Of a stretch of 64,000 nucleotides of DNA, positions 38,501-60,317 are shown one piece after another. The translations under genes were made by a program, and so were the position numbers. The notes below the pieces were generated by a model that was not told where the DNA came from, did no database searches, and saw only the letters and a list, made by a program, of their open reading frames with translations. The stretch's first letter is position 1; every line of letters starts with the position of its first letter. This stretch comes from Chloroflexota bacterium (GTDB taxonomy: Bacteria; Chloroflexota; Dehalococcoidia; Bin125). The stretch covers positions 1 to 64,000 of the forward strand of contig VXQZ01000014.1 in the NCBI GenBank assembly GCA_009838735.1. The letters are read 5' to 3'.

Positions 38501-38607
38501 TCCTTCGGAAGCATGGTTACCCGCCCGACAAGCAGGAACGAGCGACACGGACAGTCCTGGAGCAAGCCGAGGTCCTGTCTGAGATCTGGGCCTCTCCAGA
38601 TGGGTAG
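35503..38607 (+). CDS. hsdR: Type I restriction endonuclease R subunit
   Basis: 1034 aa; '[20 protein letters not shown]', '[39 protein letters not shown]', '[39 protein letters not shown]'. Confidence 0.95.
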
Positions 38608-38797: not shown

Positions 38798-41700
38798 TTG
38801 CGAAATCGAGGGTCTGGTCTGGAGAATCTCGAAGTGCCCGTCAAGCAACCATTTCCCGACCTAGCGCTATTGCAAGAGGAATATCTGCTCGTTGAGGCGT
38901 GGAAAAAGACCGCACATCATCTGAGAACACACAACTGGTTTGCTGACACCCTAGCCATCGACCGAGCATCGGCCGAATTGCCCAGGTTCCTAGATGGCGT
39001 GGCGACTCGCCTCTCAGATCACGCTGGATACGAGACCCGACCATTGCGCTTAGTGCCCGCACCAAAGAGCCACACCTGGAGATATGACCCCAAGGCCGAG
39101 AGTTCTGGCTGGGAACCTGATCCCGGCGACGAAGGAAAGCCCCCTCGTCTCCGGCCGCTAGCGCACGCAAATCTAAGGGATCAAGTGGCTGCAACCGCGA
39201 TCTTGCTCTGCCTCGCTGATCGCGTCGAGACCCTTCAGTGTGACCCGAGTGGCTCGCCCAGTGATCCTGTGCACAGGCGCCGAGTCACGTCTTACGGCAA
39301 TAGGCTCTTCTGTGATGTGGAAGGTGCTGACCTCCTCTATCGATGGGGAACGAGTTCGCTTTACAGAGGATATTTCCAGGACTACCGGGCGTTCGTGGCG
39401 CGACCGGCTGCGGCAGCACAGTCCGTGGACGCAGGCGAGTCGCGGGTTGTCGTCGTGCAATCGGATCTAAGAAACTTCTACGACCGTGTGCGCCCAGAGT
39501 TGCTCACTGAGAGGCTCCGTGATCTCCAGGATCCTGACGACGATGCTGACTTCTTCCTGTTAGCTGAGAAGGTGTTGAAGTGGCGATGGGACGAGCGAGA
39601 CCAAGCCAGCGTCCAGGCCTATGCAGACCAAGAAGAGATTCCAGACTTCGAAAGGGTCGCATTGCCACAAGGACTCGCTGCGGCCGGCTTCTTCTCAAAT
39701 GTGGTGCTGTTGCCGTTCGACGCCGAGCTCCGCAGCCTGGTGTCTAAGGAATTCTTCGTTGGAGCTCACCTGGTAGACGTTGCTCGCTACGTGGACGATC
39801 TCAGAATCGTGCTTAAGGTTGACAATCGGCAGTTAGAGATGAAGGACATTGAAGAAGCGACGAAGATCAAGCTCGATGAACTGCTCCAATCGGATTTCGG
39901 TCTATCGGCTGCCAGAGAGAAGACTCGAGCATCCGAGTTTGGAATGCAGAGTGATCGCCCCATCGTCCAGCAAAGCAAGCGTATGACCCGCATCCAGAAG
40001 GCGGTCTCGGGCGGATTCGACGTCGCTGGCGGCGAAGCAATCCTTGAAGCAATTCGTGGCCTGATGCGATCTCAACTCATCCATCCAGAGGAGCATGAGG
40101 AGGACACCGAGTGGGCGTTCACGCCGGTCGCCGATGTCCCCGACGACACAGTTGCCCGGTTTGGAGCTGCTCGATGGAAACGGGTCTATCGCTGGCTGCG
40201 TCCTCTATTGGAAGAGGAAGACTCTTACCCTGACGACTCGCTAGACGACAGCATTGATGACTCAGTACCGACATTCGATGAACTGGAGAAAACACGAAGC
40301 GATCTGGACAACGAGGCCGAAGTCTTTGCTGCGGACCTAATCAAACGTTGGATTGCAGATCCCTCGAATGTCCGGCTACTGCGCATCGCATTCGACATCT
40401 GGCCATCTTCCTCTTCGCTGCAGGAGGTCCTCAACCTCTTGAAGCCCCTCGCCTTAGGAACAGGAGAAGATGAGGGCCCGCGCCTGGTCGCTCAGTACTG
40501 CCTCTCGGAGCTCTTTCGGGCAGGTGCCACAGAGACTGGCTTCGTTTGCGATCCAGACGAAATCAGGCTGAACATCGAAGGGTATCGGTCAACTCTCCAA
40601 GAGACCGCGGAGCAAGTGATTGAGCACGATGCGAGTGCTCTTCCCTGGTATCTCCAACAACAGGCAATGCTCTTTCTTGCGACTCGCGGATCTGTTCCCC
40701 ACCTGATCGCCAACACCGATCCCGAACTCCGGCATTACGCAGCGCTCCTGAGGTTCCTCGACGATCCATCTACGGCATCATCCGCAACCGACTTCGCCAC
40801 CTTCTCCGTGCTGGCCCGGCACTGTTTCGCTCACGAAGGCGCTGCACCATTGATTGACCCTCACATCACAAGGGCGCGACTCGCTCGGCTCGTTCATGTC
40901 GACCCTACCTTTGCCATTGAGGTGATCGAATCCCACCGGGATTTCCGCTGGTTGCTGCCTCCCTACATCGCACGAGACCTGTGCATGACAGAGGGGCTAT
41001 CTGAAGACCCGCACTCCCTCGCTCGGTTGGTATCTGATGGGCAAAACCCATTTCGAGACGAGATGGCATTGCTGCAGTTCGCGATCAAGGTTCTACACAT
41101 CCTTCGTAGAGGCCAACGGAGTGTCATTACGCCGGCCGATCTGCATATTGACCTCTCGTACCGCAGCCTTAGCGACAAATGGGCAGTGCGGGAGGGCGAC
41201 TTCAGAGTTTTGCTGCGGCATCGGCGATATCTGACCACCTCCATATATTCACCACCAGACTGGTGCCTGGATTCGGAACGATGGCGATTCCAACTCGGAT
41301 ATCTGCTGCGCTTCGTCCTGACCGAGAGACCAGACTTCACCTCGTCAGTACGTCGATCCTCAGGACAACAGACCAGTGGAGAATCTTACCGCTCCGTTGG
41401 CATGCCTTGGAAGATGAGGCGCTATGGATTCTTCCACGGCCATGAGGCGTTCGGCGATCGCTGGCTGCCAATTACGGAGTGGACTACGAAGCTGTTGATT
41501 GAACTTCTTGCCTGGCCAGGGGCACGAACACCGGGTTTTGAGTGGGTAGATGACGGAATTGGTGCAGCGCTGAACGCGATTCAGGAGCGAATAGACAAGC
41601 TATGGAGACTGCAGGGAGCCAGCAAGTCGGAGCTGTTGCTCAAGATTGAAGCAGAGCCTCCTGTCACGATCGCGCAAAATCGACCCTTGCGGGCAGCGGT

Positions 41701-42577
41701 GGTTCAGACTGTGCTGCCACAGGAAAGTTGGTTCCAGCGAGGCCCCGAAGACCTGTGCCCTGAGCATCGAAGGGCGATGCGGCGCCACCTTGCGACGGCG
41801 CTATCGGTTGTTCGCTCGTCATTGCGTCTGCGCAGGACCCATGAGGATGGAGCCGGCAGCATCGATCTTCTGATCATGCCTGAGCTGTCCGTGCATGTCC
41901 ACGATCTTGGCATCCTCAAGCAGTTTGCGATCTCGCACAAGGCAATGGTGTTGGCGGGTCTTGTTTATCACAAAGCAAGAGAGGATGACTGCCAGCCGTT
42001 TGTGAACTCGGCAGTCTGGATGGTTCCAGAGAAGGTTCGCGAAGGAGGGCGGCAGATTCGGATCATCGAGCAAGGCAAACACCACCTTGCGCACTCCGAA
42101 CAAGGCCTCAATGTTCGCCCGTTTCGGAACGGTCAATGGCTTGTCGGGTTCCCGTGGTCGCCGGAGTCAGACAAAGAGCGCCTTTGGCTGACTGCGTCGG
42201 TCTGCTACGACGCTACCGACATCGGGCTTGCTGCTGACCTACGTGGGAAATCTGATGTCTATGTGATTCCGGCTCTGAATAAGGACACCACGACGTTCGA
42301 CCAGATGGCGCTGGCACTTCACTATCACATGTTCCAGATGGTCATCGTGGCCAACAGCGGAAAATACGGTGGAAGTAATGCTTACATCCCTTATCGAAAG
42401 AACTACGAGCGTCAGATCTTCCATTTCCACGGGCAACCGCAGGCCGCAGTCGCGTTCGTTGAGATTTCTGATGTCAGCGAGTTCTTGAATCGGGTCGAGA
42501 CTGCGAAGGATGTCGAAGTCAGCACCACAGGCGAGAGCAAGCCGCAGTTCAAGTTTCCGCCGGCTGGTCTGTGTTGA
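38798..42577 (+). CDS. Defence-associated reverse transcriptase with C-terminal nitrilase domain (DRT1/UG1-like architecture)
   Basis: 1259 aa; RT 'VVVVQSDLRNFYDRV', 'ALPQGLAAAGFFSNVVLLPFD', 'VARYVDDLRIVL'; nitrilase E/K/C: 'LLIMPELSV', 'EQGKHHLA', 'TASVCYDATD'. Alternative GTG start 38834. Confidence 0.85.
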   Translation: MRNRGSGLENLEVPVKQPFPDLALLQEEYLLVEAWKKTAHHLRTHNWFADTLAIDRASAELPRFLDGVATRLSDHAGYETRPLRLVPAPKSHTWRYDPKAESSGWEPDPGDEGKPPRLRPLAHANLRDQVAATAILLCLADRVETLQCDPSGSPSDPVHRRRVTSYGNRLFCDVEGADLLYRWGTSSLYRGYFQDYRAFVARPAAAAQSVDAGESRVVVVQSDLRNFYDRVRPELLTERLRDLQDPDDDADFFLLAEKVLKWRWDERDQASVQAYADQEEIPDFERVALPQGLAAAGFFSNVVLLPFDAELRSLVSKEFFVGAHLVDVARYVDDLRIVLKVDNRQLEMKDIEEATKIKLDELLQSDFGLSAAREKTRASEFGMQSDRPIVQQSKRMTRIQKAVSGGFDVAGGEAILEAIRGLMRSQLIHPEEHEEDTEWAFTPVADVPDDTVARFGAARWKRVYRWLRPLLEEEDSYPDDSLDDSIDDSVPTFDELEKTRSDLDNEAEVFAADLIKRWIADPSNVRLLRIAFDIWPSSSSLQEVLNLLKPLALGTGEDEGPRLVAQYCLSELFRAGATETGFVCDPDEIRLNIEGYRSTLQETAEQVIEHDASALPWYLQQQAMLFLATRGSVPHLIANTDPELRHYAALLRFLDDPSTASSATDFATFSVLARHCFAHEGAAPLIDPHITRARLARLVHVDPTFAIEVIESHRDFRWLLPPYIARDLCMTEGLSEDPHSLARLVSDGQNPFRDEMALLQFAIKVLHILRRGQRSVITPADLHIDLSYRSLSDKWAVREGDFRVLLRHRRYLTTSIYSPPDWCLDSERWRFQLGYLLRFVLTERPDFTSSVRRSSGQQTSGESYRSVGMPWKMRRYGFFHGHEAFGDRWLPITEWTTKLLIELLAWPGARTPGFEWVDDGIGAALNAIQERIDKLWRLQGASKSELLLKIEAEPPVTIAQNRPLRAAVVQTVLPQESWFQRGPEDLCPEHRRAMRRHLATALSVVRSSLRLRRTHEDGAGSIDLLIMPELSVHVHDLGILKQFAISHKAMVLAGLVYHKAREDDCQPFVNSAVWMVPEKVREGGRQIRIIEQGKHHLAHSEQGLNVRPFRNGQWLVGFPWSPESDKERLWLTASVCYDATDIGLAADLRGKSDVYVIPALNKDTTTFDQMALALHYHMFQMVIVANSGKYGGSNAYIPYRKNYERQIFHFHGQPQAAVAFVEISDVSEFLNRVETAKDVEVSTTGESKPQFKFPPAGLC

Positions 42578-42639
42578 CTGTGGTCCTGTGGCTACCGGCC
42601 ACTCACCTGGTGAAATGGCTGTGGCGATGAGTGGTCAAA

Positions 42640-43074
42640 ACACCCTAGGTGTCGACAGTGAGCGGAGAGAGCTTGTCACCCTCACCGCTCTTCTGGCCCG
42701 GCAACCTGCACGTGTCACGCTCATTCCTGCGACATCGCGCTCCTCGATCACGATGAAGCTGGCACAGTCGGTCAGGCTCCAGCGTTGGTCCGGGCGAGCG
42801 GCGTAGCCTTCGAGAGCGGCTTGAAACTGAGCGTCGATCTTCGGGATGATCTCAACTTGCGGACTCTCTGCCAGCCGCTCCACTAGTCGCGTGGCGGCCA
42901 GTCTGGCACGATCTCCACTGCCCGCTTGAGATGCGAGGGTCTCCACCAACGCCATCTGAGTCGTGACAATGTCGAAATCGTTCAGACGAGCCGATGCCGC
43001 GCGCACGAGTGCAGTTGATCCCTGCTGTCGATCAGCGCGATCCAATAGCCCGAGGCGGCGAACAACGCCGCCAT
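42640..43074 (-). pseudogene. Frameshifted PIN-domain toxin
   Basis: Start MAALFAASGYWIALIDSRDQLH... then shift to ALVRAASARLNDFDIVTTQMALVETLASQ...RPDQRWSLTDCASFIVIEERD. Confidence 0.65.
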
Positions 43075-43334
43075 CAGTCGTCCGGATGCTTGGGGTGGCC
43101 GTACAGATGGTGTTTCTTGTGTCGAACGAAATCCGTCGGGCGGTTCTCCCAGCGTTCCGGTGGATGTTCGCTGTGCAGTTCTTCCGCGAGGTCCAACAGC
43201 CAGGAGCCGCTCGATTCTTGGTCGGGCGATTCCTCTGCGACTTCGAGCAACACGTTGCAGCCGTCGGGGAGGCGAAGCGGATCGAGCAGTTCGAGATTGC
43301 CGTCGACGTAGCGGGCGCGGATGCGATCCGGCAT
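43074..43334 (-). CDS. DUF104/AF2212-like antitoxin
   Basis: 86 aa 'RIRARYVDGNLELLDPLRLPDGCNVLLEV'; TGATG overlap with PIN remnant. Confidence 0.6.
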   Translation of the reverse strand: MPDRIRARYVDGNLELLDPLRLPDGCNVLLEVAEESPDQESSGSWLLDLAEELHSEHPPERWENRPTDFVRHKKHHLYGHPKHPDD

Positions 43335-43663
43335 GGAGGGTCTCCTTGTTGGCCAGTGTATCGGGGAGAAGTGATGTGAGGATAGAGAGGGCGCGCGCGG
43401 ATGACGCGGATATGCCCGAGTGGGCAGCTGGTGAAGTCGGCGTTATGGCGAGTGCTTCTACGACGGTTACTTTGCCACACGGCCGCTAGCGACGAGTCTC
43501 AGGAGTTGCCGGTTGCCTACCAATCTTCCTAAGAGCAAGAACTTTCGAGTTGACGTTCCCGTTGGAACTGTGAGTCAGGCCCAAAAGGGCGCGACCCTCG
43601 ACCATTGAGGCGGTCGGAGTGGTTGCACTAAAGCTGCTCCGGGAGGTGAAGTGAGGCCGCCAG

Positions 43664-46600
43664 CTACTCGTCGAGACGCCGCCTCAGTTCCTCCTCCACT
43701 CCGTAGAAGTTGGCCTTGATCATCTGGTCGATGATGTTGCGAACGCGGACCTCGAGAGGCCAGTCATCTGTCGTCTCCAGCAGGCGAAACAGCAGTTTTG
43801 CGAGCAACTGGGCGACCATGGCCTCCATGTACTGAATCGAAGCCGCCTTCGGTCCGTATTCCGCGAGCGCTCGCTCGGCTATATCGCAGATCTCAACGGG
43901 AGGCGGCTGCGAGGATTTGCCGAGCCGGACAAGCAGAGCGGAGATGCGAGATTCGCTGAAGGTTCGTGAGCGAGCGAACGTGCTGAGCAGGACACTATGT
44001 CCGGCGATTTGTTCGGGGCCGAGGGAATCCCAGCATGCGGCGGCGGACCGTCGCACGACCTTGCTTTGGTCCTCGAACATCTCGGCCAGGCGGGAGGCAC
44101 ACCAGCTTCCAGCTTGTTCGTGGAGGAGGTTCGCAGCGTAGATGTCTGCCGCTCCCGCCCTGATGTGCTCGCCCAGCTGCAGCACCTTGGCTTCATCCTC
44201 GCGAGCTGCAGAGTTGTGAGGAGAAAGGGCGGACAGCACGATCCAACGAGCGCCAACTCGTTGGGCGGAAACTTCGCCTGAGTCCAACAGTTGGTTCAGG
44301 GTTGACCTCATATCCAGATAGCTTCGTTGAGTTGCGCGTCTGATGAAGTGTTCGACGTAGAACGACCCGACAATGGGTTCGGCTCCGTTGATCAGTCGCC
44401 GGAAGCACTGCAGCGCTTCATCCGGATTGGCATTCAGGATGGCCAGGAGGCAATTCGCAGCCGTTGAGCGCACTGCCAGAACCGGGTCGACAGCGAGCTG
44501 ATGCACGGTGTCGCGGAACTGGTTCCACCGGTTCACGTCGGCGTACAGCAGCTTCGCGATCGCATAAGCGGCCGAGCCGCGAGCCGTGTTGATCGCTTGC
44601 GTCACCGGCGCCATCGAATCTTCCGGGCCTAGCCAATCGTCCTTGTCCGGGTCTGGATCGGTCATGGCTATGTCGTTCAGCCAGGCCATGAGATCGTTCG
44701 GCAGAGGCTCTTCGGCGAGCGCGCCAAACGCGTGCGCAATCTGCCCACCGGGCATGGGCACGCCGAGCTCCTTAATCCTGCCCAAGACCCGGAGAGCTTG
44801 CGCCAGGGAACCGGAACGCGGCGAACCATCTTCGCTCTTAGTCAAACCGCGCAAGACGGCTTCGAAGTACTCGGGCGGGTCTGAGGAGTTCAGGTGGTCG
44901 GTCAACGCAGCGAACCGGGCAGGGGCTTGCACGGCCGCACCTTCAAGCGTCTGGCTCAGTTCGTGCACGCCGCCGACGAACTGGTTGCCGTGGAACGTCT
45001 CCCCGGTACGCGCGACGTCGCGCATCTTCTCAAGCCAGTGTTCATCGCTAATCTGTAGCGCCTCATCATCGGAGATCGGGGAGACAGCCCAGCCGAAACC
45101 ATCGTCGTCAAGGTTCTGGGGAGCGCCTCGCCGCTGCTTCTCAGGGAACCGAGCCTCAAGTTCCTGAATGCGTTGCTGGGTGGACTCCTCGACTCGGTTC
45201 TCCGGCAGGCACCAGAGCAGGGCAAGCTGGATTTCCGCATGCTTCTGTTCCGGCCGTTCCCGCCGCGGCTCGAACGCGAGAATCGCTTGCTCCAGGGTCT
45301 TGAGCGACTCATCCGCGCACCGTTCCGCTGCGGCCGCCACCCCAGTCCGACTCACGCCGACGAACAAGTCACCGCCGCTCGATCCCCAGCTATAGCCGAG
45401 GTCGAGCCGGCGGCCAGGATCGTCCAGAATGAACCTGACGATCACCTCGGAGAACGAGTCGGGATTGGCGCTCATCGCATCGAGCCAGGCGATGCTCATC
45501 CAGCGCGTCCAAACGTCGTGCTCCCGACTGACCGCCATCACGATCGACTTGAGGGCTTCGGGTTCCTCGACCGCGAGTTGGCGCATCGCCGTCGCCAGCA
45601 GCGCATAAGGGCCTCGTTCCGGATGATCGCCCCCCCGCGGGGCGCCGACGATGTTCATCGGCGCGACTCGCTCAATGCTGACGATCCGGGGCAACATCTC
45701 CTGCACAAACGCTCGCGGCGCAGCAGAGGCGCACTCGCTCGTAGTCCAATCGTCCAGGCCAAGTCGGAGATCGAGCCGTTCTGTGTTGGCGACCGCCGCC
45801 TTCGGCTCGGCAACCACTCGGTCGAACCAGGCCCCAATCGCCTGCGGCGCAAACAGAGGCGCCTCTTCCTTCACTGCGAACAGGATGTCGGACAGCAGCC
45901 GAGCGAGCCGTGCGAAATCCTCGGAGCGATCGAGAGGTTCCGTGTGAATCAGGCCGAGTAGCCACGCTTGCTTGGTGGGAGAGCCGTAGCCGTCGCTCCA
46001 CCGGGCAACGTTCCACAACCTTAGGCGCCACTCGGGCGTGTCATCCCGGTGTTCGTTCAGAAGCTCGATCACAGCGTTTGTCCGCTCGGTCAGCAGCGCG
46101 GGCGTTTGCAGCAGGACCACGGTCCGGTCGGCTTCTTCCTGCGATCCGGCGAGCCAGCGATCCCAGCGCTGCATCTCTCGCAGCAGATCGAACCAGGGCG
46201 TGGAGTTACGGGCCACTTCCCAGACGTGATTGCCCAGCTCCTCGGCCTGGCGCTCAACGATCTCCCACTCTTCCGCCGTCGGATCCGCGATCGATCTGAG
46301 CCAATCCAACACTCGCTTCTTGATGTGGAAACGTACTTCGGAGTCTGCCAGCAGCCGCTCCAGCGTGAGCAGGTAGCGGCCGCGATCTGCTCGTCGGCGC
46401 CGCAGAAAGGCGAGCACGCCGAGCACTTGGCGGCGGCGGAAGTAGGCCTGGCGATCCTCCCTGAGCCAGTCCAGCAGATCTCGCTGCTCTGTCGCGAACG
46501 AGCGCGCGAACGCGTAGTCGAAGAACGACTCGTGGAAGAAGCCGACCTCACCGTCCTGTATGAACAGCACGGACTCCGAAGCCATGGCCGCCGCTGCCGC

Positions 46601-48226
46601 CGGGAAGGCGTCGAGCAGTTCGTAGTCCGGCGCGGCGTACGCCTCGCGATCGCTGAGCGCGTGGGCAAGCCGGGACGCGGCCGCGGTCCAGTCGCCGCCG
46701 CTTACCAGCGGATGACTCGTGACGCGCTTCGCCTTCTCCCGCCAGTAGGCGTCGAAGAGGTCGTCGACCGTCGCAAACCCCAGTTCTCGAGATTGCGCAG
46801 CTTCGACGAACAGGTAGAGGTGTAAAGGTACGCGCAGAAGCTCCTTCTGGAAGTCGGTGAGACCTCCAGGTCCGATCGCGGCTGTCTGAAGCGCGCGCCG
46901 GACATCGTCCAGCGTCAACACGGTCACTTCGAGGGTGCGGGCAACCGCAGATGGCCCCTCGGTGATCCACTTGAAGGATGTCTCCTCTTCGAGTTCAAAC
47001 GACCGACAGATGAACAAGATCCGTAGGTTCGGATGCTCGGCGGCCTGATCCACGATCTCGCGCAGGACGCGCTGGCCCCGTTCGTTCCGCTCCGTCCCAC
47101 CGGCCAACCCGTCGAGCTGATCGATGCAGAGAACGGCGCGTTCTCCCTGCGCCGCCTGTACCAGTTCCGCCACCGGAGAGTCCGACAAGCCAAGGCGCTG
47201 GCCGACTTCGCCGGACGAGAACGCGCCTCGTAAGTCGCTTGCCGGGACTGTAAGGGCGACCACGCCCCGTTCGTCAAGCTCTCGGACTATCTGCGCCATG
47301 ACGCAGCTCTTGCCCGCCCCCGCCCCGCCGCTGAGCAGCAGCGACTCATCCCGATCAATGAGCGCCTCCGTGATCGCAACCGACTGCGAACGCGGAATCG
47401 CTGCTCCGTTGATCAGGGCGTGCTCGATCCGGCCGAGGTAGGCGTGAGTCAGAGTCAGGATCCGTTCGATTGAGCGATCACGGGAGGGCAACTGTCGTCG
47501 CACATACCCATACCGCTCCAGCTCGTGCCGGACCTGTTCGGCCCGAACGGCCTGTCCTAACCGGCTCCATGCGAACTCTTCAAGCAGCGTCCGCACGGCA
47601 TGCGGATCTGCCAGTTCACCGTCAGCTCGACCGATCCGCTCAGCGATCAGTCGTTCCACGTCTTGCACGAGCAAACGGTGCCCAATGGTCACAAACTCGC
47701 AGTCTTTCAGCTTCGTGTAGGCCTCTTGTTCGCTCTGGCCGAGCGACGCCGCGCTGGCGAAAAAGGCGTCGTGCTGTCGATTCGAGAGCCGGCTGAAGAA
47801 CTGCTCCAAGCTGCTGGAAGACCTTGCCCGCTCTGCCGCTTCGCGCAAATGGGCCGCGGCGTCCTGGCTGATGAACACCGCGCGGCTCGCACCTGGACCC
47901 TGCAGATGGCCGAAGAGATCTCCCAGGATCGACCTCCCGGTCGACGGGGAGGTTCTCGTCAGCTCGGAGGCGGTCCAGCGAGCAGCCGAATTCGGGGCTT
48001 GGCGTTTGACCGAGTGAAACTCGATTTCCCCGGCTGGCATGACGCGAGAGAACTCGACGCCGAGGCCGTCTGGCCCGGGTTCTTCCAGCCGCACCTCAAC
48101 CACTTCACCAGCGAGAAGATCCAGCATGGTCTGGACCGTCCAGGCCCGCTCGTACAGGTCGGCTACCTTCGCGGCCGGACCGCCCGGCAGACTCGGCAGG
48201 GCGTCGTGGGGCTGCTGCTCGGGCAT
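43664..48226 (-). CDS. Avs-like STAND P-loop NTPase with N-terminal restriction-endonuclease-like region and C-terminal helical repeats
   Basis: ORF 43664..48295; N-term 'YERAWTVQTMLDLL...GVEFSRVMPAGEIEFHSVKRQ'; Walker A 'LLLSGGAGAGKSCVMAQIV', Walker B 'AVLCIDQLDGL'; long HEAT/TPR-like C-terminus. Confidence 0.7.
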   Translation of the reverse strand: MPEQQPHDALPSLPGGPAAKVADLYERAWTVQTMLDLLAGEVVEVRLEEPGPDGLGVEFSRVMPAGEIEFHSVKRQAPNSAARWTASELTRTSPSTGRSILGDLFGHLQGPGASRAVFISQDAAAHLREAAERARSSSSLEQFFSRLSNRQHDAFFASAASLGQSEQEAYTKLKDCEFVTIGHRLLVQDVERLIAERIGRADGELADPHAVRTLLEEFAWSRLGQAVRAEQVRHELERYGYVRRQLPSRDRSIERILTLTHAYLGRIEHALINGAAIPRSQSVAITEALIDRDESLLLSGGAGAGKSCVMAQIVRELDERGVVALTVPASDLRGAFSSGEVGQRLGLSDSPVAELVQAAQGERAVLCIDQLDGLAGGTERNERGQRVLREIVDQAAEHPNLRILFICRSFELEEETSFKWITEGPSAVARTLEVTVLTLDDVRRALQTAAIGPGGLTDFQKELLRVPLHLYLFVEAAQSRELGFATVDDLFDAYWREKAKRVTSHPLVSGGDWTAAASRLAHALSDREAYAAPDYELLDAFPAAAAAMASESVLFIQDGEVGFFHESFFDYAFARSFATEQRDLLDWLREDRQAYFRRRQVLGVLAFLRRRRADRGRYLLTLERLLADSEVRFHIKKRVLDWLRSIADPTAEEWEIVERQAEELGNHVWEVARNSTPWFDLLREMQRWDRWLAGSQEEADRTVVLLQTPALLTERTNAVIELLNEHRDDTPEWRLRLWNVARWSDGYGSPTKQAWLLGLIHTEPLDRSEDFARLARLLSDILFAVKEEAPLFAPQAIGAWFDRVVAEPKAAVANTERLDLRLGLDDWTTSECASAAPRAFVQEMLPRIVSIERVAPMNIVGAPRGGDHPERGPYALLATAMRQLAVEEPEALKSIVMAVSREHDVWTRWMSIAWLDAMSANPDSFSEVIVRFILDDPGRRLDLGYSWGSSGGDLFVGVSRTGVAAAAERCADESLKTLEQAILAFEPRRERPEQKHAEIQLALLWCLPENRVEESTQQRIQELEARFPEKQRRGAPQNLDDDGFGWAVSPISDDEALQISDEHWLEKMRDVARTGETFHGNQFVGGVHELSQTLEGAAVQAPARFAALTDHLNSSDPPEYFEAVLRGLTKSEDGSPRSGSLAQALRVLGRIKELGVPMPGGQIAHAFGALAEEPLPNDLMAWLNDIAMTDPDPDKDDWLGPEDSMAPVTQAINTARGSAAYAIAKLLYADVNRWNQFRDTVHQLAVDPVLAVRSTAANCLLAILNANPDEALQCFRRLINGAEPIVGSFYVEHFIRRATQRSYLDMRSTLNQLLDSGEVSAQRVGARWIVLSALSPHNSAAREDEAKVLQLGEHIRAGAADIYAANLLHEQAGSWCASRLAEMFEDQSKVVRRSAAACWDSLGPEQIAGHSVLLSTFARSRTFSESRISALLVRLGKSSQPPPVEICDIAERALAEYGPKAASIQYMEAMVAQLLAKLLFRLLETTDDWPLEVRVRNIIDQMIKANFYGVEEELRRRLDE

Positions 48227-48623
48227 ACTTGACAGGTTACCAACGGCCCGGGGGCTGGCAATCAGCTGGTAGGGGCGCTCAAGTGCGCGTTCCACCTAAG
48301 GGAACTCGAACCCGAGAACCCGAAAAGGGCACCAAGCCGGAGCTGCGTCGCTAGAGCGCCACCTCCCAGACGAACGTTCGCAGTACAGTCCCTCTTGGCC
48401 TACCACCCGTGACAAAATCGAGAACTTTCTCGTTGACCATCGCGCTTGTCATTTGAGGAACGGGGCCGTCGCGTCGCCATCGTTGGCTCAGCCGACAATC
48501 AGTGGCAACATTTCCTGCTTCAGGAGCACCACCGCAAAGCGGAGTGAGCAGCCCGCAGGCTTCGATCAGATCAACGGCAGGCGGACTCGGCGCGTTGCCA
48601 ATCGAACTCCGAGACACCAAGTC

Positions 48624-51600
48624 TCAGGCCAGTTCGTTGGAGTGAATGTCCAATTGGGTTCTGACACGACTCAGCACGAATTCCCGTTCGAAGGGACTCA
48701 GAGCCAGCTTGCTATCCGCCTCCAGGGAGTCTTTGAGTCGGGTTAGCGTGCCCAAGGTCGTACGGCCTTGGCAGAGCACATCCATCGACAACTCTAGGAT
48801 CATTCCCAACTGAGAGAGCGGGACTCTGTCGAAGACCCGTGAGATTAGCCCGGTCACGACCGCGACAGCAGTTCGTGGATCGCTGTCTGGACCGCGCAGG
48901 GTTCCGAGCATCGCACGCGTCTCTTCGTTGCTGATGTACCCATTCGCCTTGAGGCGCCTCAGAATGTCATCGGCTCCAAGGCGTAAGAACGTGTAGTGCA
49001 TCGAAGCGAGCTGTCCCACCGCCGCGGAGTACTCTTCGGCCTCGAGCGCTCCGCTTCTGAGGAGTTCCTCCAAGACCCCCTGGCTGTTCACGACCTCCTT
49101 TCCCGTCGCCCGAACGAGATTCGCGAGAGCAACATCGTCAGACACCATTACTAGGGGTGTCCCATCTAACTTCATATCGGAGCAGATTGCGCCGACTCCA
49201 GAAATCGTCAAGGCCTCAACAGCAAACTCAGCATCTCCAAGGTCAAGCACTTGGTAGGCGGGAACGCGTTCTAGCGATTCCACGAACTCCAACACGCTCT
49301 GTGCGAAATCTCGCCACGCCGCCAGTCCCTCGTCGTGACGCTCTGAGAACACGTATCGGCCATCGTCTGACTTGCCGAGATGGCCGCTAGCCCGCATCGT
49401 CTTCGCCATGGTGTTAGTCGCCTGGAACTCATCGACCACGTGTTGCGGAACAGCCACACACCCGAAGCGAGCCTTGAGCTGGTCACCGATTCCCAGCTCG
49501 TGGACCGTCAGAACGGCCGGCAAGTCCAAAACAATACCCTGAGTCCCTGGCAACAGCGCCTGTGCCAGATCAGCTTCACGCGGGTCTCCCATCGCGAACC
49601 TTATGGGAACCGAGCCGTCCACTGTGCAGGCTCTCCAGACTTCCACAGGGGAAGGGCCAATGAGGGAAGAGAACATGGCAAACGGAAATCCTCCTTCGCG
49701 ATATCTCTCCTCGACCGATCGGACGAATTGGGCTCGTCGCTCAGTGGCTTGGATCAGCTTCGTGATATCCCCTTCATCTGCGACGATTCGAGACAAGCTC
49801 GTGTTGTCTGGAAACCGCGTCGAGAATTCGGCAATCGTCTCTTGAAATGCCCGGACGAACTTGTTTTGGATGGCGACCACCCTGTACGTGAGTTCTTCCA
49901 GGTCGTCTCGCATCTCGATCTTGTCGCCGACTGCAGACCCTATCAATCGCCTTGCGAATTTATGATTGGCCGGCAGTTCGCTGGTGTCGTACCGCTCATC
50001 TTCGTCATCAAGGATTGACCACCACGTCTCTTCTCCCGTCAGAGTGTCTCGCAAGCGGACGGCGCAGCCCGGCGCTACGAGTTCCGGTTCCGCCATTTCG
50101 TGATCGTGGGCGAGAAAGATGGCGAAGTATCCGCTGTGCAAGTCGGGATCATCGATTCCATGGCGTCGTGCGGCGTACGCGTCATTGAGGGCGCCATCCA
50201 CCCCGAGCATGACCTTCAACTTCGCCAACTCCAGTAGAAGACGAGGATCGCCCTGCAAGTCCGACGGTTCAAGGCTTTCGACGGTCTTTCTCGCCGCATC
50301 TCTCAACCCAGCGCGAAACTGAAGGAGGGCAAGTCGCACTCGATCAGACTCGTTCACGTCGGGCCGGGCGCAGATCTGCTCACGCAGAGCAACAGCTGGT
50401 GGAAGGTCTCCTACGATTTCGAGGATCTGCGCCTCCGTATCGATCACGTGTTTGGGAACTTCGACACGAGTCTTCCTAATCTGTCGAGACCACTCCAGTG
50501 CCTCGCGAAGGCGTCTCGCCTCGGCGAGACATCCGAGCAGGTCGACCGCTAGGAGATGGAGTGGCGAATCGTCCACCACCTTCGCATAGGCGTCAGCAGC
50601 ATCACTGAATCGCTTCATCTCCCAGTAGAAGTTGCCTAACCGGAACAGAATCTCAGGTCTCCCTGAGTCATCGGAAAATGACAGGGCCTTCTGGAGGTCC
50701 TCCTCTGCCCTGACGAAGTCTCTCAAAGATCGCCTCCGCGTGGCTGACACCGCAAGGAGCCATGGATCCTCGGGTCGCTTCAGCAGCGACTCCTCAAGCG
50801 ATCGCCAGGCCGGGTCCTCATCATCCGTTTCCATGTCAACTTGGCATACGAGCTCCGCCTTCCAGAGATCGTCTGGCCCTGGATTCTCAAACGTGAACTT
50901 GCCCCTGATCAGTTTCTTGGCAGCGAGATGATCTCCCAAACGGAGGTAAACCTCCGCCAGGGGAGCGATGACATCTTCTGACCCTATGTCCGTCCACACT
51001 TGCTCAAGCGAGTCCCGCGCCTCGTCGTATCGACCGGCCATCATTAGTACTAATCCGCGCACGTGCAGTGGCGAAGGGTCGCGCGGATCTGCTCGAACCG
51101 CATCGTCGAGGTCGCTCAGCGCCGCATCAATGTGTCCCTGAAGAGCCTTAGCGAATCCGCGGACCACGAGGGCACTGCTGAGCTGGGAGTCTAGGTCTGT
51201 AGAGTCGAGTAGCTCGATCGCTCTGCTCGCCGCTTCCTCGCACTGTTTCAACCGCTCGTGTGCCGTGTTCTCGGCAGCCCCGCCCTTCGCCAACGAGGCT
51301 TGCGCCTCGGTGAACAAGCATTGGCTCAGCATCAAATGGGCCCCAATGTCTTTGGGATCATCCTCGATCAATGTCTGACAGAGCTGCGCCGCTTCTTCGA
51401 AGCGACCTTGCTTTGCGCGCACATCGGCCAGAACCAGTCCACTGGAACGATCGGCGGTTACCCAGGCATGACTGGTGATGAACTCTCGAAGCTGCTCGCG
51501 CTCCTCAGCTTCCCAAAACGACTCGATGATGATTGCTGCGGCGTGGCCGTTCCGAGGCTCCAACTCCAAGGCTCTATGTGCGAGGTCCAACGCGCGCTCA

Positions 51601-52427
51601 GCGTCGCCTCTTAGCCGGGCGGCGACCGACACATTGGTGATCCCCTTTGGGTTGTCTGGCTGAAGCTCGTGCGCTTCGTCGAAGAACAGACACGCACTCT
51701 CATAATCACCTTCGGCGATCGCACATGCACCGAGATTCGTAACCACTCGAAATTCCAGGTCCACCGACAAGGAACTCTTGGCGCGAACGGATTCGAGCTT
51801 CTCCCGAGCACTTCGAACGTGGCCCAAGTCAATGAGTTGTCGAGCGAGGTCGATTTCGGCTTTAGCGTCGCTGTGTGGACCGGTGGTGTCGCCAGAAGCC
51901 TTGTCTGAGCCCGCCGATGCAGTCGCCTTGGCAACCAAGAAGCCCATATCGGCGCGTAGCGCCTCCACACCAGTCAGAATCTGATTTCGTTGCTGACGAC
52001 CATGCGCTGCTAGCTCCTCGCCACGGTTGGCGAGGGCCGAAATGCCCCACTTACTCTGATAAATCTCCGACAGGAGTTCGCCGAGGAAAACGGAGACGAT
52101 CTCCTCAGCGAGCCTCTCGCTTTCCGCCCTCGATGGCATGTAGAAGTCGCCCTCGGTGATGAAGGAAGAAATGACCTCCTCAGCAGCGAAGTCTCTTTCG
52201 CCGATCTGCGCTAGATGGAAGAGATCCTTGAACTCGTCGCTCCCGACCCACCTCTCCAAGGCAGTTTCTACGCCAGGGACATCGCGACTCCCTGTAGCAC
52301 CCTGGGCATCCGGGTCACCGCGGAACTTATCAGCAGCCGACTTGATAGCTCTGTCGATATCGACGACATCTCGCCAACCGGCGACAACGAGTCTGGCGGC
52401 AATTCCAAGAAGAACTTCAGGGCCCAT
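48624..52427 (-). CDS. TPR-repeat protein with GreA/GreB C-terminal-like and PIN-like domains
   Basis: 1267 aa; multiple TPR motifs; 'GCAVRLRDTLTGEETWWSILDDED...HKFARRLIGSAVGDKIEMRDDLEELTYRVVAI' (GreAB-C); 'GIVLDLPAVLTVHELGIGDQLKARFGCVAVPQHVVDEFQ...VMVSDDVALANLVR' (PIN-like). Confidence 0.75.
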   Translation of the reverse strand: MGPEVLLGIAARLVVAGWRDVVDIDRAIKSAADKFRGDPDAQGATGSRDVPGVETALERWVGSDEFKDLFHLAQIGERDFAAEEVISSFITEGDFYMPSRAESERLAEEIVSVFLGELLSEIYQSKWGISALANRGEELAAHGRQQRNQILTGVEALRADMGFLVAKATASAGSDKASGDTTGPHSDAKAEIDLARQLIDLGHVRSAREKLESVRAKSSLSVDLEFRVVTNLGACAIAEGDYESACLFFDEAHELQPDNPKGITNVSVAARLRGDAERALDLAHRALELEPRNGHAAAIIIESFWEAEEREQLREFITSHAWVTADRSSGLVLADVRAKQGRFEEAAQLCQTLIEDDPKDIGAHLMLSQCLFTEAQASLAKGGAAENTAHERLKQCEEAASRAIELLDSTDLDSQLSSALVVRGFAKALQGHIDAALSDLDDAVRADPRDPSPLHVRGLVLMMAGRYDEARDSLEQVWTDIGSEDVIAPLAEVYLRLGDHLAAKKLIRGKFTFENPGPDDLWKAELVCQVDMETDDEDPAWRSLEESLLKRPEDPWLLAVSATRRRSLRDFVRAEEDLQKALSFSDDSGRPEILFRLGNFYWEMKRFSDAADAYAKVVDDSPLHLLAVDLLGCLAEARRLREALEWSRQIRKTRVEVPKHVIDTEAQILEIVGDLPPAVALREQICARPDVNESDRVRLALLQFRAGLRDAARKTVESLEPSDLQGDPRLLLELAKLKVMLGVDGALNDAYAARRHGIDDPDLHSGYFAIFLAHDHEMAEPELVAPGCAVRLRDTLTGEETWWSILDDEDERYDTSELPANHKFARRLIGSAVGDKIEMRDDLEELTYRVVAIQNKFVRAFQETIAEFSTRFPDNTSLSRIVADEGDITKLIQATERRAQFVRSVEERYREGGFPFAMFSSLIGPSPVEVWRACTVDGSVPIRFAMGDPREADLAQALLPGTQGIVLDLPAVLTVHELGIGDQLKARFGCVAVPQHVVDEFQATNTMAKTMRASGHLGKSDDGRYVFSERHDEGLAAWRDFAQSVLEFVESLERVPAYQVLDLGDAEFAVEALTISGVGAICSDMKLDGTPLVMVSDDVALANLVRATGKEVVNSQGVLEELLRSGALEAEEYSAAVGQLASMHYTFLRLGADDILRRLKANGYISNEETRAMLGTLRGPDSDPRTAVAVVTGLISRVFDRVPLSQLGMILELSMDVLCQGRTTLGTLTRLKDSLEADSKLALSPFEREFVLSRVRTQLDIHSNELA

Positions 52428-52779: not shown

Positions 52780-53161
52780 CTACGGCTCCTGCCGAGGCAG
52801 CACCGACCACCTACCGAGAACAGTTCGTCTCACCTCGCCTCCAGATCGTGCTGCATATGTGGTTCCAGGCTTAGGTCCTGTCTCCAGTGCCCCAGGGTCA
52901 CAAGACAAGCGGTCCAATGCAGCGGCTCGGTCCCCAGGCGCTGGCGGCATAGCGACCGCAACCAGCGCAGGCACTGGTGAGCGGCAGATTCCAGCACAGC
53001 TGCCGGAGCGCCCGTCGCCGCCAGTCCACTTCCTGCTCGCGTCGCCATTCGCCCCAAGGCGCGTCGGCCAGGGGCGGGGTCAGGCCGAACACGCCGATCA
53101 GCCGAGGCTCCATCTGCAGCCGCCGCCGCTCCGGCCGCAGCCAGGCCAAGGTGTCTCTCAC
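52780..53161 (-). pseudogene. C-terminal fragment related to HTH protein 54013-55035
   Basis: EPLHWTACLVTLGHWRQDLSLEPHMQHDLEAR vs EPLHWVGRLVTLGRWGGGLSLERQMQHEFEVR; PLADAPWGEWRREQEV vs PPAEAPWDQVRRETEV. Confidence 0.75.
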
Positions 53162-53462
53162 CGACTTGCGCTCGGCTCAGGCCACCCGCCGCTCGAAGAT
53201 CAGGTCGGCTGCCGCCCAGTGGACCTGCTCCTCGCCTGGTTCCGCCTTATCCGTGGCCAGCCCGGGGAACACGCGGCAAGGCTGTGGCAGGGACTGCCGT
53301 CGCGCATTCTCGTCCCCAGCACTTGCATTCTTCGTCTTGCCGTCGTCATTCCTGCTTCTCTACCCCTATGGGAGACGGCCCGGGCTGCCGCCGGCCGGAC
53401 CGGTTCCGCGTTCCAGGACAACGCGGTCAATCCGGAACCTGAATAGGCGAGGCTCGAGAGCC

Positions 53463-53711
53463 CTAAATCTGGTTTAGGTCAACCATCAAGCTAAAGCTTG
53501 CCCACTGGCCGAGCGTATCGACGAGCAGGCGATCATTGGTGTCTATGTGCTTCATCAGCTCGTCGCGGATCGCAGCCGATGATGTGTTGTTCAAACGCAC
53601 GACCCACGTCGACTGGAGCGCTCTCTTCGCCCCCCATCCTTCGAGGACGTCATACAGGGCCTGATAGTTTTGGCCCGGCAAGACTAAGTCGTAGCTGATG
53701 AGATAGACCAT
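53463..53711 (-). CDS. Cas2-like/SinR-like small protein
   Basis: MVYLISYDLVLPGQNYQALYDVLEGWGAKRALQSTWVVRLNNTSSAAIRDELMKHIDTNDRLLVDTL; ATG 53711. Confidence 0.6.
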   Translation of the reverse strand: MVYLISYDLVLPGQNYQALYDVLEGWGAKRALQSTWVVRLNNTSSAAIRDELMKHIDTNDRLLVDTLGQWASFSLMVDLNQI

Positions 53712-54012
53712 TGCTTCGTCCTTCCATCTCTCTGTTGCCGGCAACGAGAGCGACGCACCGACAGCCGACTCTTGGTCGGTCGGTAGCATGTCGGAGCAGC
53801 TTAGCTCGTCGACATCCCGACCAACTTGGAGAGGCCGTTGTCACTGCCTCTACACTGCAGTGGGACCAGACCCTCGACCACAACCATCTCTTTGCGCAAG
53901 TCCACATTCTCTTTCCGCAGGGCATCGGTCACCTGACACAGCTCGTCCACAACCCGATTCAGCTCGCGCTCAAACTCCTGTTGGCCAGTCGCCCGGTCCC
54001 TTCACTCCCCAG

Positions 54013-55035
54013 TCAGGACGCCTTGGATCGCCCCCCGTTCCGACCCCGGCCGGAACGTCGCGCCACGCCTGGGGGCAGTAACTCGGACCGGCGCACCTCG
54101 AACTCATGCTGCATCTGACGCTCCAGGCTCAACCCGCCACCCCAGCGACCGAGGGTCACGAGCCGGCCTACCCAGTGCAGGGGCTCGGCCCATAGTCGCT
54201 CACGACGCAGCTCCCGCAGTCGTTGCTGGCGCAGCTGGACCTCGGTCTCCCGCCGCACCTGGTCCCATGGGGCCTCGGCCGGGGGCATGGTCAGCGAGTG
54301 GTCGTCGACCAGCTGGATCTCCAAGCTCAGCAGGCGTTCCTCCAGCTGCAGACAGGTCACGGTGTTGGGCGGCTCCTCCAGGGTGCGCCGGGTCCGTCGC
54401 CACTCGGCCACGACGGGCAGCGCCGCGCCGTAGACCTCGGCGTCGTCTGGGGCCGGCTCGATCGCCACCAGACCGATGTCACCCAGATGGCCCTTCGCAC
54501 CTGTCACCCGGGGCGCCACCGCCATTCGAATCTGCTCCAGGTCGTCGCCCGCCTCCCAGAGTTCCTCCAGCAGCCCGCCGGTTTTGCGCTGCAGGTCCGC
54601 CAACCGCCGCTCAACGCGCCGCAGCTGCTTGTGCAGGCTGGCCGGTGTCCTGCGCTCCGACGCCGCCCGCGCCTCGGACGCTTCCAGCTCGCGCTCAAGC
54701 GCCTGGGTCATGTGGGGGGTCAGTTGGGGGGAGGCCAGGGCCCGCCTCAGGGTGCGCTCACTCACGCCCAGCCGATCAGCCGCCTGCACCCGTCCCTGCT
54801 CCTCCACCAGGTCCTGTAGGAAGCCCCGCAGCCGCCCCGCCTCCGCCTTAGCCGTCACCCCACCACCCCTCGCATCGTCCTCCCTACCCGTCCGTCCGCT
54901 GTCCGGACTATCGCCGACGTGCCCCACTTCCGTGCAGCCCGCTGGCGCAGAATCTCCCCCGGACTCCCCACCCCTGGAGTTGTCCTCACCCCGCAAATCA
55001 CTGGGTTTGCGCTCATCCCGACCCATTTGCCACAA
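54013..55035 (-). CDS. HTH-containing coiled-coil regulatory protein, divergent from replication-relaxation gene
   Basis: 340 aa; 'LVEEQGRVQAADRLGVSERTLRRALASPQLTPHMTQALERE'. Confidence 0.55.
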   Translation of the reverse strand: MWQMGRDERKPSDLRGEDNSRGGESGGDSAPAGCTEVGHVGDSPDSGRTGREDDARGGGVTAKAEAGRLRGFLQDLVEEQGRVQAADRLGVSERTLRRALASPQLTPHMTQALERELEASEARAASERRTPASLHKQLRRVERRLADLQRKTGGLLEELWEAGDDLEQIRMAVAPRVTGAKGHLGDIGLVAIEPAPDDAEVYGAALPVVAEWRRTRRTLEEPPNTVTCLQLEERLLSLEIQLVDDHSLTMPPAEAPWDQVRRETEVQLRQQRLRELRRERLWAEPLHWVGRLVTLGRWGGGLSLERQMQHEFEVRRSELLPPGVARRSGRGRNGGRSKAS

Positions 55036-55127: not shown

Positions 55128-55200
55128 CATACGATGGGACAGTGTCTCGAACCGCCCTTCGGGAGTGAAACAAGGACGACCGAGCTGGGAGCGGGCCGAA

Positions 55201-56837
55201 TGCGAGAGATCGAGCGCGACTTGCTCAGGCTCGTGGCCGAACTGCCGCTGGCCGACCGGATCGAGCTAGCCCGGCTCTCGCCCTGGTCCGAGCGCGCCGT
55301 CTACCAGCGCCTCGGGGGACTTGAGCGGGCCGGATTGGTCGAGAGCCTGGCCCACGCATCCGAGTCAATCAGACCAACCCGCCGGTTCCTGCTCAACGAA
55401 GCCGGGATCAAGCGGGTAGCGCTGAGCAGCGGATGCAGCCCCGGGGAGATCCTGGGCCAGCTTCCGGTCTCGCAGCCCTGGCGGCGGACGCTGCTCGGGC
55501 GCTTGGACTCGGTCGCCGTGATCTACCGGCTGGGCTGCGCTGTGGCCGAGCTGGGGCAACCGCCGCGCCTGCGCTGGTACCGCTCGCAGCCGGCCGACGC
55601 GGCCCTGGGACTCGGGGACGGTCGCACCCTGGCCGTCGTCCGCTGGGGCCGCACCGCCGACCGGACCGCGTTCGGCGTGCGCCTGAGCCGGCTGCGCGAG
55701 GGGCCGTCGTACTCAGGCGCGCTAGTGCTCGCGCCCGACGAGGTGCGGCTCAAGCACGCCCGTCGGCTGCTGCGGCAGGCTCCGTTCATCTGCTTCTTCG
55801 CCCTCGAGCGGGACGCGGCCTGGGCGAACAGCGAACCGCGTATCTGGCGCGAACCGAACGCCGGGGTCAGGCTCAGCCTCACCGAGGCCTTGAGCTACGT
55901 CCGTCCAAACGGTCGGTGGGCGGTCGAGCCATCGCTGCGGGGCACGCAGTCTCCAGACCCGCTGGACATCCGGCGAGACGCGCCGGCGCCGGACTGGCTG
56001 CTGCCCGCTCGGCTCAAGCCGGCTCTGAAGCGCACGCTCGACCTGGTCGGCGACTGGCCCTGGATCAGGGCCGACCACCTGGCCCCGCTGCTCGGCGTCG
56101 CCCGGCGCCGCGTCTCAAAGCTCACCGCCGAGCTGGAACGGTTGGACCTGCTCACCGCTCCTCGGATCGACGGCAAGCGGCGGCTCGTAGTGAGCGACCG
56201 CGGACTGGCCCTGCTCGCCCGCCGCGATCGCGCCTCGGTCGGCGCGGCGCGCAAGCGCTGGAGCGCCAGTCTCATTGATCCTGAGGGTCCGCTTGAGTGG
56301 CGCAATCTGCGCGGCCGCCGGACCCGCCAGCTGCTCCGCAACCTCACCCATACCGAGGCCGCGCACGGGTTCCTGGCGGCGCTGGCCCACCAGGGTCATG
56401 CGAACGGGTGGCGGTTCACCCAACTCGATCCGCCGCAACGGGCCTCGCGCTACTTCCGCTTCGAGGATCGGTTGCACTCGATCCAGCCCGACGCCTTCGG
56501 CGTGCTGCGCCACGAGGGGCGCGAGCAGCCGTTTTTCCTCGAATGGGAGCGGCGCGCGATCCGGCCCTCAACGATGGCGGCCAAGCTCGCCCCCTACATG
56601 CGCTACTACTCGTCCAAGCGCCCGCTCGAGGATCACGGCGCGATCCCGCTCGTGCTGGTCGCGTTCGAGGACGCCTTGGCCGCCGATCACTTCCTGCGGG
56701 TTACGCGGGAGCAACAGGACATCGCCGGCGTGAGTCTGCCGCTCCTGATCACTCATCGCGACGCCATGACCGAGTCCGGGCCGCTCGGCCCCGTTTGGCG
56801 TTCAGCCGATTGCTCGAGGCTCAGCAGCTGGCCGTGA
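55201..56837 (+). CDS. Replication-relaxation family winged-helix protein
   Basis: ORF 55134..56837; N-terminal wHTH 'IELARLSPWSERAVYQRLGGLERAGLVE', C-term 'HSIQPDAFGVLRHEGREQPFFLEWERRAIRPSTMAAKLAPYMRYY'. Confidence 0.75.
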
Positions 56838-57003: not shown

Positions 57004-60000
57004 ATGCCGGCGGTGCTCCGAAATCCAAAAGGCGCTCTCAGCATATTCGTGTTCTGCGCGCTAGTCGCGGTCGCGACAACACTCGTCGATCTCGGGGACA
57101 GGGTGGCAAGTGCCGCCGATCCCCGCGTCGTCCAGATAGAGGTTGGGCTCTCACGCAGTTGCGCTGTGCTAGCCGACGGTCGCATCACCTGTTGGATGAG
57201 CGACTGGCAGGACGGGGAAGTCGAAGCCCGCTCCCTACGTTACCGGCAGGTCTCGATGGGCGATTATCGGACCTGCGCGCTCACGCTCGACGGCAGGCTG
57301 ATCTGCGACGGCTGGGAGGTGGGTGAAAGCGGCGTGCGCTACCGCTCCGTCAGCGTAGACGGCACGAACGACTGGAGCGTATGCGCGATCAGGGAAGACC
57401 GCAGCGTCTGGTGTCTTGACCGACTGGATTCGAGTCCGCTTGCGCTGCCGGATGAGCGCGACTTCGATTCGCTCAGCATCGCTGGCTACCACGCATGCGC
57501 GGTGAGAAGCGATGGAACGGTCCATTGTTGGCTGCCGCTGACCGCCTATCATTCCATCCTCCCGCTCAAGCCTCCGGCTGGGAGGTTCGTGAGCGTGAGT
57601 GTAGCCAACGGCTTCGCTTGCGGGCTGCGGATCGACGGGCGTATCAGCTGTTGGGGACGGGACAGACATGGTGAGACCGCAGCTCCAGAGGGGAGATATC
57701 TGTCGGTCGACGCCGGTCATGGTCGGGCGTGCGCCGTTCGCCAGGACGCCTCGTTGGCCTGCTGGGGCGACGTTCGGCTGGGCGAGAAACTGCCGCAGGG
57801 GCGCTATCGCGCGGTGAGCGTGGGACGCGGCAGCCACTGCGCAATCACCGAGGCCGGCCAAGTCGCCTGTTGGGGAGAACGAGACGGGACGTGGAACGGT
57901 GCGCCCGCCCAGGAGGCGCCTGCGGGCCCCTTCGTCAAGGTGGTGCAGCGCGCTGGCAATGGGCTGTGCCTGCTGCGGGCGGACGGCGATCTGTTCTGCA
58001 ATGCACGATTTAACTACCCGTTTCACCGCGCTCACGGTTCCGTTACGGCGCTCGCAAGTCCCGGCGAGATTTGCGCCGTCCTTGCCGACACGACCCTGTC
58101 TTGCACCGTCAACAGGAGCGAGTACCCCGAGATCCCCTCCGACGTTCAGGCCGACTGGTCTGGCGGCGTGCCGGCGGGCCAATTCTCCGCCGTCGCCGGG
58201 CATCAACACGGTTACCCACCCTACGGTCACTGGTGTGCGCTGCGGCTCGACGGCGGCGCACAGTGCTGGGGCGCCGACGCGCATGGCCAAGCCAGCGCGC
58301 CGGCCGGTCGGTTCACCCAGATTGCGATCGCTGATCGGCGTAGCTGCGGGTTGCGCGAATCGGGCCGGGTCAGTTGTTGGGGAGCGCCGTTCGGAGACGA
58401 GTCGCCTATGGTTTCGCGGCCTCCGGTTGAGGTCCTGAGGGAGATTTCCACCCTTGCAGTGACGCATGAGCGAGTGTGCGGACTGCAGTCAGACGGCCGC
58501 GTGTCCTGCTGGGATGGGCAAACTGCGTGGCGATCTGATCCGAGCCGGCAGGGCTATACCCATTTGGAACTGTCCGCTCAGGTGCTCTGCGCCCTCAGAA
58601 CCGACCAGCACGTCGACTGTTGGCTCCGCGGCCGCGTCGGGCTAGACGACCTCCCTCTCTCAGCTGTGCTGGAGAGCGGTGAGCCCGCACGTTTCCGGGC
58701 CATCTCGGTCATTGGCGGTCGCATCTGCGGAGCCCACACGTCGGGCGGTGTCGTCTGCACCCACGCCCACGGCGGTTCATCGCCTTGGCGGCGGATTCCA
58801 CGGTTTGGAGACGAAATCTACAACTGGTTGTCTATCGGTCCCGACAAGGAAGAAGGGACGATGCGCTGTGCGATCACCGTGCAAGGCGACGCGATCTGTC
58901 TGATCCTGTATCAGGCCGACCCGCTGCGCGTCTCGGGTCTCGCATTGCGTGCGGAAGAATGGAGCGAACGCGTCGCAGCTGACGGTCGCTGGCGAGGACG
59001 ATTCAATCTACGGCGTCTGTCTTCGGGCTCAACCGAACTCAGGTTCACGCCCGCACCGACGGGCTCGATGCCGAGCGTCGCCCGGACCTTGAGCTTGCAA
59101 GGTTCCGGCGCAACTGACTCTGCTTGGACATCTGCAGGCGAGGTTATTGCCGGGGGAGCGCGCTGGGGTCAGTTGCAGGCCCGTCAGTGGAGAGATGGTT
59201 CCATCGAGGCATCGCTGGTCGCGCCGGGTGGCGAACGGGTGCTGGCCCACGCGCGATTCTTGCCCGGCGATGCTCCGGCTGATCGCTGGTTCGACAGCGG
59301 CGAGACCTCGGTGCCAGCGCCGGCGACGATGATTGCGGCCACGGGAGAGCGATTCCGGTCGGAGATGGCTTGGGTCCTGCGCTCTGACGGCGCTTTGGAG
59401 CCACAACGCAGAAGCTGGCTGAAGCGGGCTGACGCCGATGGTCCCTATCTCTTCATTGACGGAGGCGCCGACGCGCTCTGCGCGGTGCTCTCCGACGGGA
59501 CGGCCACCTGCTCCGGGCGCTTGCACGCCGAGGTGCCGGATGAGAGATTCACTTCCGTGAGCGTCGGCCGCCGCCACGCCTGCGGTGTGCGAATCGACGG
59601 CGGCATCACCTGTTGGGGCGCCAACCAGTTCGGCGAGAGCGACCCGCCTGCGGGCCGCTTCCAAACGGTCAGCGCCGGCGGCGCACACACTTGCGGCGTT
59701 CGCGCGGATGGTCAGGTCCGCTGCTGGGGGTTGGACTGGCAGGGCCAGGCAACCGCACCTACGGGTCGCTTCACCCTGGTCGCCGCTGGAATGGCTCACA
59801 CGTGCGGACTGACGGACGACGGACGCATCAGCTGCTGGGGCGCGAACGGCCAACAGCAATCCCGGCCGCCCAGTTCGTTGACCTCGCCCGACGAGCGCTA
59901 CCGCTCGGTCAGTGTCGCCGACTGGCACGCTTGCGCGGTGACCACTTCTGGATCCGCCGTGTGCTGGGGGGCGCCCGACCTCCCCGGTTCTGAGCCGCCG

Positions 60001-60198: not shown

Positions 60199-60317
60199 TT
60201 CCTATGCCCATCGTTTTCAAGCACGATCGAGCTCGCAACGTGGCGGCGCTAACGCCATTGTCCAGATTGAATGCTCGTTGGTCGGTGGAGGACGCGGCCG
60301 GCAACCGGTGTCATCCG

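Follow-up and report, generated by a model that had tools for sequence, protein, structure and literature searches.

A TPR-GreA/B-C-PIN gene beside an Avs-like STAND NTPase gene in a Chloroflexota defence island: very probably two single-gene systems rather than one

Two giant genes stand one behind the other on the same strand of contig VXQZ01000014.1 from a Chloroflexota bacterium (assembly GCA_009838735.1), of which positions 1 to 64,000, hereafter the window, were analysed. The upstream gene encodes a protein with TPRs, a GreA/GreB C-terminal domain and a PIN domain, and the downstream gene encodes a STAND NTPase (Table 1). A sequence-only reading had proposed that they form a new two-gene defence system. 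The question is whether the two proteins act together or are merely neighbours. Our data strongly favour two independent single-gene defence proteins lying side by side in one defence island.

Table 1. Coordinates of the two genes, their domains and the neighbouring defence genes in the window.
Feature	Coordinates	Strand	Remarks
hsdM (type I R-M)	29617-31191	+	Upstream of the pair
hsdS (type I R-M)	31856-33157	+	Upstream of the pair
TIR/nucleoside deoxyribosyltransferase-like gene	33154-34149	+	Between hsdS and hsdR
Small gene	34362-35084	+	Between hsdS and hsdR
hsdR (type I R-M)	35503-38607	+	Upstream of the pair
DRT1-type reverse transcriptase fused to nitrilase domain	38798-42577	+	PADLOC Drt1a, 1169.8 bits
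Avs-like STAND NTPase gene	43664-48226	-	1520 aa from ATG; ORF with PADLOC and PDB matches
Long HEAT-like/helical C-terminal region, presumed sensor	43667-46427	-	HEAT and HEAT_2 matches in 4/8 family members
STAND NTPase module	46496-47410	-	Alignment A1; AAA, NACHT and nSTAND5 matches; P-loop around residues 296-407
Cap4-type (PD-(D/E)XK) nuclease region	47837-48226	-	About residues 1-130; alignment A4 and Pfam matches of relatives
Intergenic gap	48227-48623		397 bp to ATG; 328 bp to GTG-start STAND ORF
TPR-GreA/B-C-PIN gene	48624-52427	-	1267 aa, ATG start; ORF with PF20698, TPR and GreA_GreB matches
PIN domain	49125-49532	-	Residues 966-1101; PF20698 E 1e-8; candidate acidic residues present
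GreA/GreB C-terminal domain	49866-50081	-	Residues 783-854; PF01272 E 9.1e-5; NCBIfam greA, residues 779-853, E 8.8e-4
TPR array	50118-51860	-	About residues 190-770; TPR_2 E 4e-26 and other TPR models
N-terminal domain of about 150 aa, probably all-helical	51978-52427	-	Without Pfam match; low-confidence model

Both open reading frames were found as the sequence-only reading had described them, and its assignment of domains was confirmed for either protein: Pfam and NCBIfam matches bear out TPRs, GreA/GreB-C and PIN in the 1267-aa protein, and the STAND protein has the REase-like (Cap4-type) N-terminus, the NTPase and the helical (HEAT-like) C-terminus. A longer version of the STAND reading frame (43664-48295, minus strand) encodes 1543 aa from a GTG at 48295. 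The ATG at 48226 is the more likely start, since it is located close to the start of the STAND ortholog from a second genome of the same genus (G208). The orthologs in this genome share 75% (TPR protein) and 60% (STAND protein) amino acid identity with those of the window, with dN/dS values of 0.188 and 0.192, respectively. Both genes are open, real and under purifying selection; same-genus orthologs with dN/dS of about 0.19 identify them as functional genes and not chance reading frames.

The upstream gene belongs, by its sequence, to the known, predicted TPR-GreA/B-C-PIN family. Its domains follow in the order TPRs, GreA/B-C, PIN. The PIN domain scored 36.0 bits with PF20698, above the Pfam cut-off of 27.8, and this model, described in Pfam as 'PIN domain associated with the TPR-GreAB-C-PIN system', was detected in all 15 aligned family members. 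The candidate acidic residues D968, D999/E1000, D1084 and D1097/D1098 are all in place; in an alignment of 17 relatives D968 was invariant, and D999 and D1098 were nearly so. The GreA/GreB-C match (PF01272) reached 22.8 bits, slightly under the Pfam cut-off of 26.9, and this domain was also matched in 8 of 15 relatives. The single-sequence AlphaFold model of the GreAB-C-PIN part had a pLDDT of 39, too low to be of use in a fold search. Alignment revealed that the Gre loop 'N/D-S-P' (N-S-P in GreA) is replaced by N-H-K in the clade of the window protein. The case for docking on RNA polymerase is weakened by this loop, which does not contain the proline that probably matters when Gre factors bind the polymerase; in the window clade such docking may be weak or different. 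A literature check on the residues of the Gre loop retrieved nothing relevant.

The N-terminus of the window protein differs from those of its relatives in having neither an Mrr-like REase nor a PNPase there. In most relatives from plasmids the N-terminal region resembles an Mrr-like nuclease (weak Mrr matches with E 0.018 and 0.006 in L008 and L011, the two scanned), and a Nostoc relative has a nucleoside phosphorylase (PNPase) domain in this place. A Pfam search with the N-terminal domain of about 150 aa gave nothing at E<5, tblastn against plasmids gave no match, and a second copy was not found in the window's own genome. The single-sequence AlphaFold model of the domain consisted of helices predicted at low confidence (pLDDT 51), likewise too poor for a fold search. 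Within the Chloroflexota sample its profile (A3) was convincing only in G000, G208 and G042, always as a part of the TPR protein. A further match, in G293, was rejected as an unrelated gene beside grpE/dnaK, where hrcA is usually situated.

The downstream gene encodes an Avs-like STAND protein. Its putative nuclease region was assigned through relatives: the window protein's own sequence is under the cut-off of PF14130 (Cap4_nuclease), while a relative in G069 exceeds it (34.9 bits) and another in G165 comes close (24.4 bits). In alignment A4 of this region E48 and K74 were invariant, and E58 was acidic or conservatively replaced in relatives. Alignment A1 revealed invariant A302, G303, G305 and K306 in Walker A (GGAGAGKS), D369, Q370 and D372 in Walker B (IDQLD), and H565, D570 and Y571 in the winged-helix motif FFHESFFDY. 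Matches to nSTAND5 and NACHT were obtained in 6-7 of 8 family members. The PADLOC model PDC-M54A was matched with E 1.6e-14 and Avs2 models were matched partially with E 6.6e-6 and 0.0011. The profile of the STAND family matched PDB 9n00 with E 2.8e-60 over profile positions 50-661 and 980-1497.

Linkage of the two genes was surveyed in 18 other TPR-GreA/B-C-PIN loci (14 plasmid loci and those of G208, G042, G336 and G314) and in 15 other STAND-family loci from plasmids and genomes, by scanning every ORF of at least 100 aa against profiles of both families. The STAND gene was absent from 18/18 of the former and the TPR gene from 15/15 of the latter; several of the STAND loci are on short contigs and some loci end near the gene, which makes the survey strong, not complete. 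Among 301 genomes sampled across the phylum, 4 contained the TPR family and 9 the STAND family, and the two sets overlapped in the window's genome only; within the genus, the TPR family was present in 2 of 15 members, including that of the window. In G208 the two orthologs are located on different contigs. The contig with its TPR gene continues for about 597 bp past the stop codon, and within this stretch, to which the view of the arrangement is limited, there was no STAND match beyond chance (the gap in the window is 397 bp). The STAND gene of G208 lies inside a 61.9-kb contig, and no TPR gene was present in the approximately 7 kb checked on each side.

Synonymous divergence between the window and G208 was lower for the TPR gene (pS 0.50) than for the STAND gene (pS 0.67), and within the window their GC contents are 58.2% and 63.6%, respectively, as would be expected from separate histories. 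In the 397-bp gap, promoter- and terminator-like signals did not rise above the shuffled background, no tRNA was found and no Rfam RNA was matched. A tRNA-like stretch in the gap was dismissed, having neither a tRNA call nor an Rfam match. Co-transcription is possible, with both genes on the same strand, a short gap and no evident terminator in between.

The neighbourhood formed by the type I R-M genes, the DRT1 gene and the two genes in question is a defence island, and in such islands unrelated systems are commonly adjacent. Many conjugative plasmids also carry a TPR-GreA/B-C-PIN gene close to genes of defence; the neighbours include Gabija-like pairs, Shedu, a CBASS phospholipase, AbiE, RES and SIR2. 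No homolog of the TPR protein was present in phage records, scans of viral contigs yielded no relatives fit for deeper alignment, and a scan of genome contigs returned one weak TPR-only match.

Several other features were observed around the pair. At 42635-43480 (minus strand) a degraded VapC-type PIN toxin was recognized by eye (readable stretch ...SLTDCASFIVIEERD...); Pfam does not detect it. On the other side, a degraded sequence at 52976-53350 adjoins the TPR gene and resembles the C-terminal part of the HTH_8-type gene at 54013-55035 (minus strand); a small Cas2-like ORF is located at 53463-53789 (minus strand; PF09827, E 7e-5), for which a CRISPR-like context was not noted. Similar HTH remnants precede the TPR gene of G208 (L028, 2274-3071). 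On rhizobial plasmids the upstream HTH genes seem to be of a different kind, the replication type. Upstream HTH genes were considered as a conserved partner and rejected, since their relation to the window is limited to degraded copies and a stretch of 45 residues. Farther on, a gene for a replication-relaxation (PF13814) protein at 55134-56837 (plus strand) and its frameshifted second copy at 60271-61286 (plus strand) suggest a mobile element. The RCC1-like repeat protein encoded between them (57004-60198, plus strand) has 1064 aa and, as read from the sequence, a signal-like segment at its N-terminus.

Genes immediately 5' of the TPR-GreA/B-C-PIN gene were also noted on plasmids. On L011 (5267-10776) and L016 (7469-12147) this position is taken by a gene of the DUF2235 or RES family, which may be an effector encoded apart. 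The rhizobial and related plasmids L008 (7156-12501), L012 (7450-12318) and L015 (5557-10899) share a replication-type HTH gene in this place together with a second ORF with a weak Abi_2 match.

If the pair were a lineage-specific system, the STAND protein would sense infection and the TPR-GreA/B-C-PIN protein would act as its RNase effector. The same strand, a gap of 328-397 bp, the lack of a clear terminator between the genes and the presence of both genes in G208 speak for such a system. Against it, the genes are unlinked in G208, the adjacency recurs in no other sampled locus, their dS and GC differ, and each protein possesses its own effector (PIN or Cap4 nuclease) along with its own repeat region. 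We therefore regard a joint system as improbable. The sequence-only reading had named, besides phage protection, conservation of the neighbourhood and co-occurrence as the way to judge its proposal of the STAND protein as partner sensor, and it is on this genomic side, with the 18 and 15 loci surveyed and G208, that the proposal fails. In a related idea the N-terminal domain, which is absent from Pfam, would be a putatively undescribed effector or adaptor, and in this lineage the protein might in addition cooperate with the adjacent STAND nuclease; we consider this unlikely.

Two other explanations have a very small chance of being correct, to about the same degree. Homology to the GreA/GreB C-domain would suit a housekeeping factor of transcription or RNA processing unrelated to defence; however, the distribution of the family is very patchy both in the phylum sample and in the genus, many conjugative plasmids carry the gene beside defence genes, and the N-terminal domains are exchangeable. 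The degraded VapC-like and HTH sequences nearby might suggest that one gene, or even both, has likewise decayed into an inactive remnant, but the reading frames are full-length, the Walker motifs and the PIN acidic residues are intact, and dN/dS is as low as 0.19. Two independent proteins, each a defence system of a single gene, thus remain by far the most probable explanation.

How these two proteins might work can be proposed from their families. The GreA/B-C domain of the TPR-GreA/B-C-PIN protein would dock on RNA polymerase at its secondary channel, the TPRs would sense or scaffold, and the PIN domain would cut the transcript; the variable N-terminal domain could add a second response. By analogy with Avs2, the long helical repeats of the STAND protein would bind a phage protein, upon which the NTPase would oligomerise in an NTP-driven manner and the Cap4-type nuclease would degrade DNA. 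The docking and RNA cleavage envisaged in the sequence-only reading thus coincide with a prediction already in print (PMC8195603), and the pairing with a STAND sensor is not supported. The proposed new two-gene system is struck off the list, and there is more reason to regard TPR-GreA/B-C-PIN proteins as defence candidates that are encoded by a single gene, move with plasmids and exchange their N-terminal domains. Should the docking on RNA polymerase be true, it would represent an unusual route in which phage transcripts are cut at the source, and the window clade, with a Gre loop unlike that of its relatives, would offer a useful variant.

Among known systems, the STAND protein is nearest to Avs2 of the Avs (AVAST) group, with which it shares a Cap4-type nuclease, a STAND NTPase and long helical repeats in a single gene product of about 1500 aa. 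The PADLOC match to Avs2 is weak and covers the NTPase region only (E 6.6e-6), and no PADLOC model of Avs1-5 matched the protein over its full length; since the Avs2 matches are partial, we call it Avs-like and not Avs2. Its best full-length relatives are PDC-M54A and the PDB entries 9n00, 9n01 and 9yix ('AAA family ATPase', 1523 aa). PDC-M54A and 9n00 are homologous to it over the edge of the nuclease, the NTPase and the C-terminus, at low identity; a literature search for the function of 9n00 found no paper. The TPR-GreA/B-C-PIN family was described as a predicted counter-invader system in which the TPR-GreA/B-C-PIN core stays constant while the N-terminal domain is exchangeable, encoded mostly by standalone genes (eLife 2021, PMC8195603). 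In that proposal GreA/B-C engages the beta-prime coiled coil of RNA polymerase and PIN cuts the extruded transcript; an experimental test of the family was not found in the papers searched. The window protein shares with this system the TPRs, GreA/B-C and the family-specific PIN domain (PF20698) in the same order, the standalone gene and, probably, the variable N-terminus, and it differs in that a probably helical N-terminus of about 150 aa without Pfam match takes the place of the Mrr-like REase or PNPase of the relatives examined.
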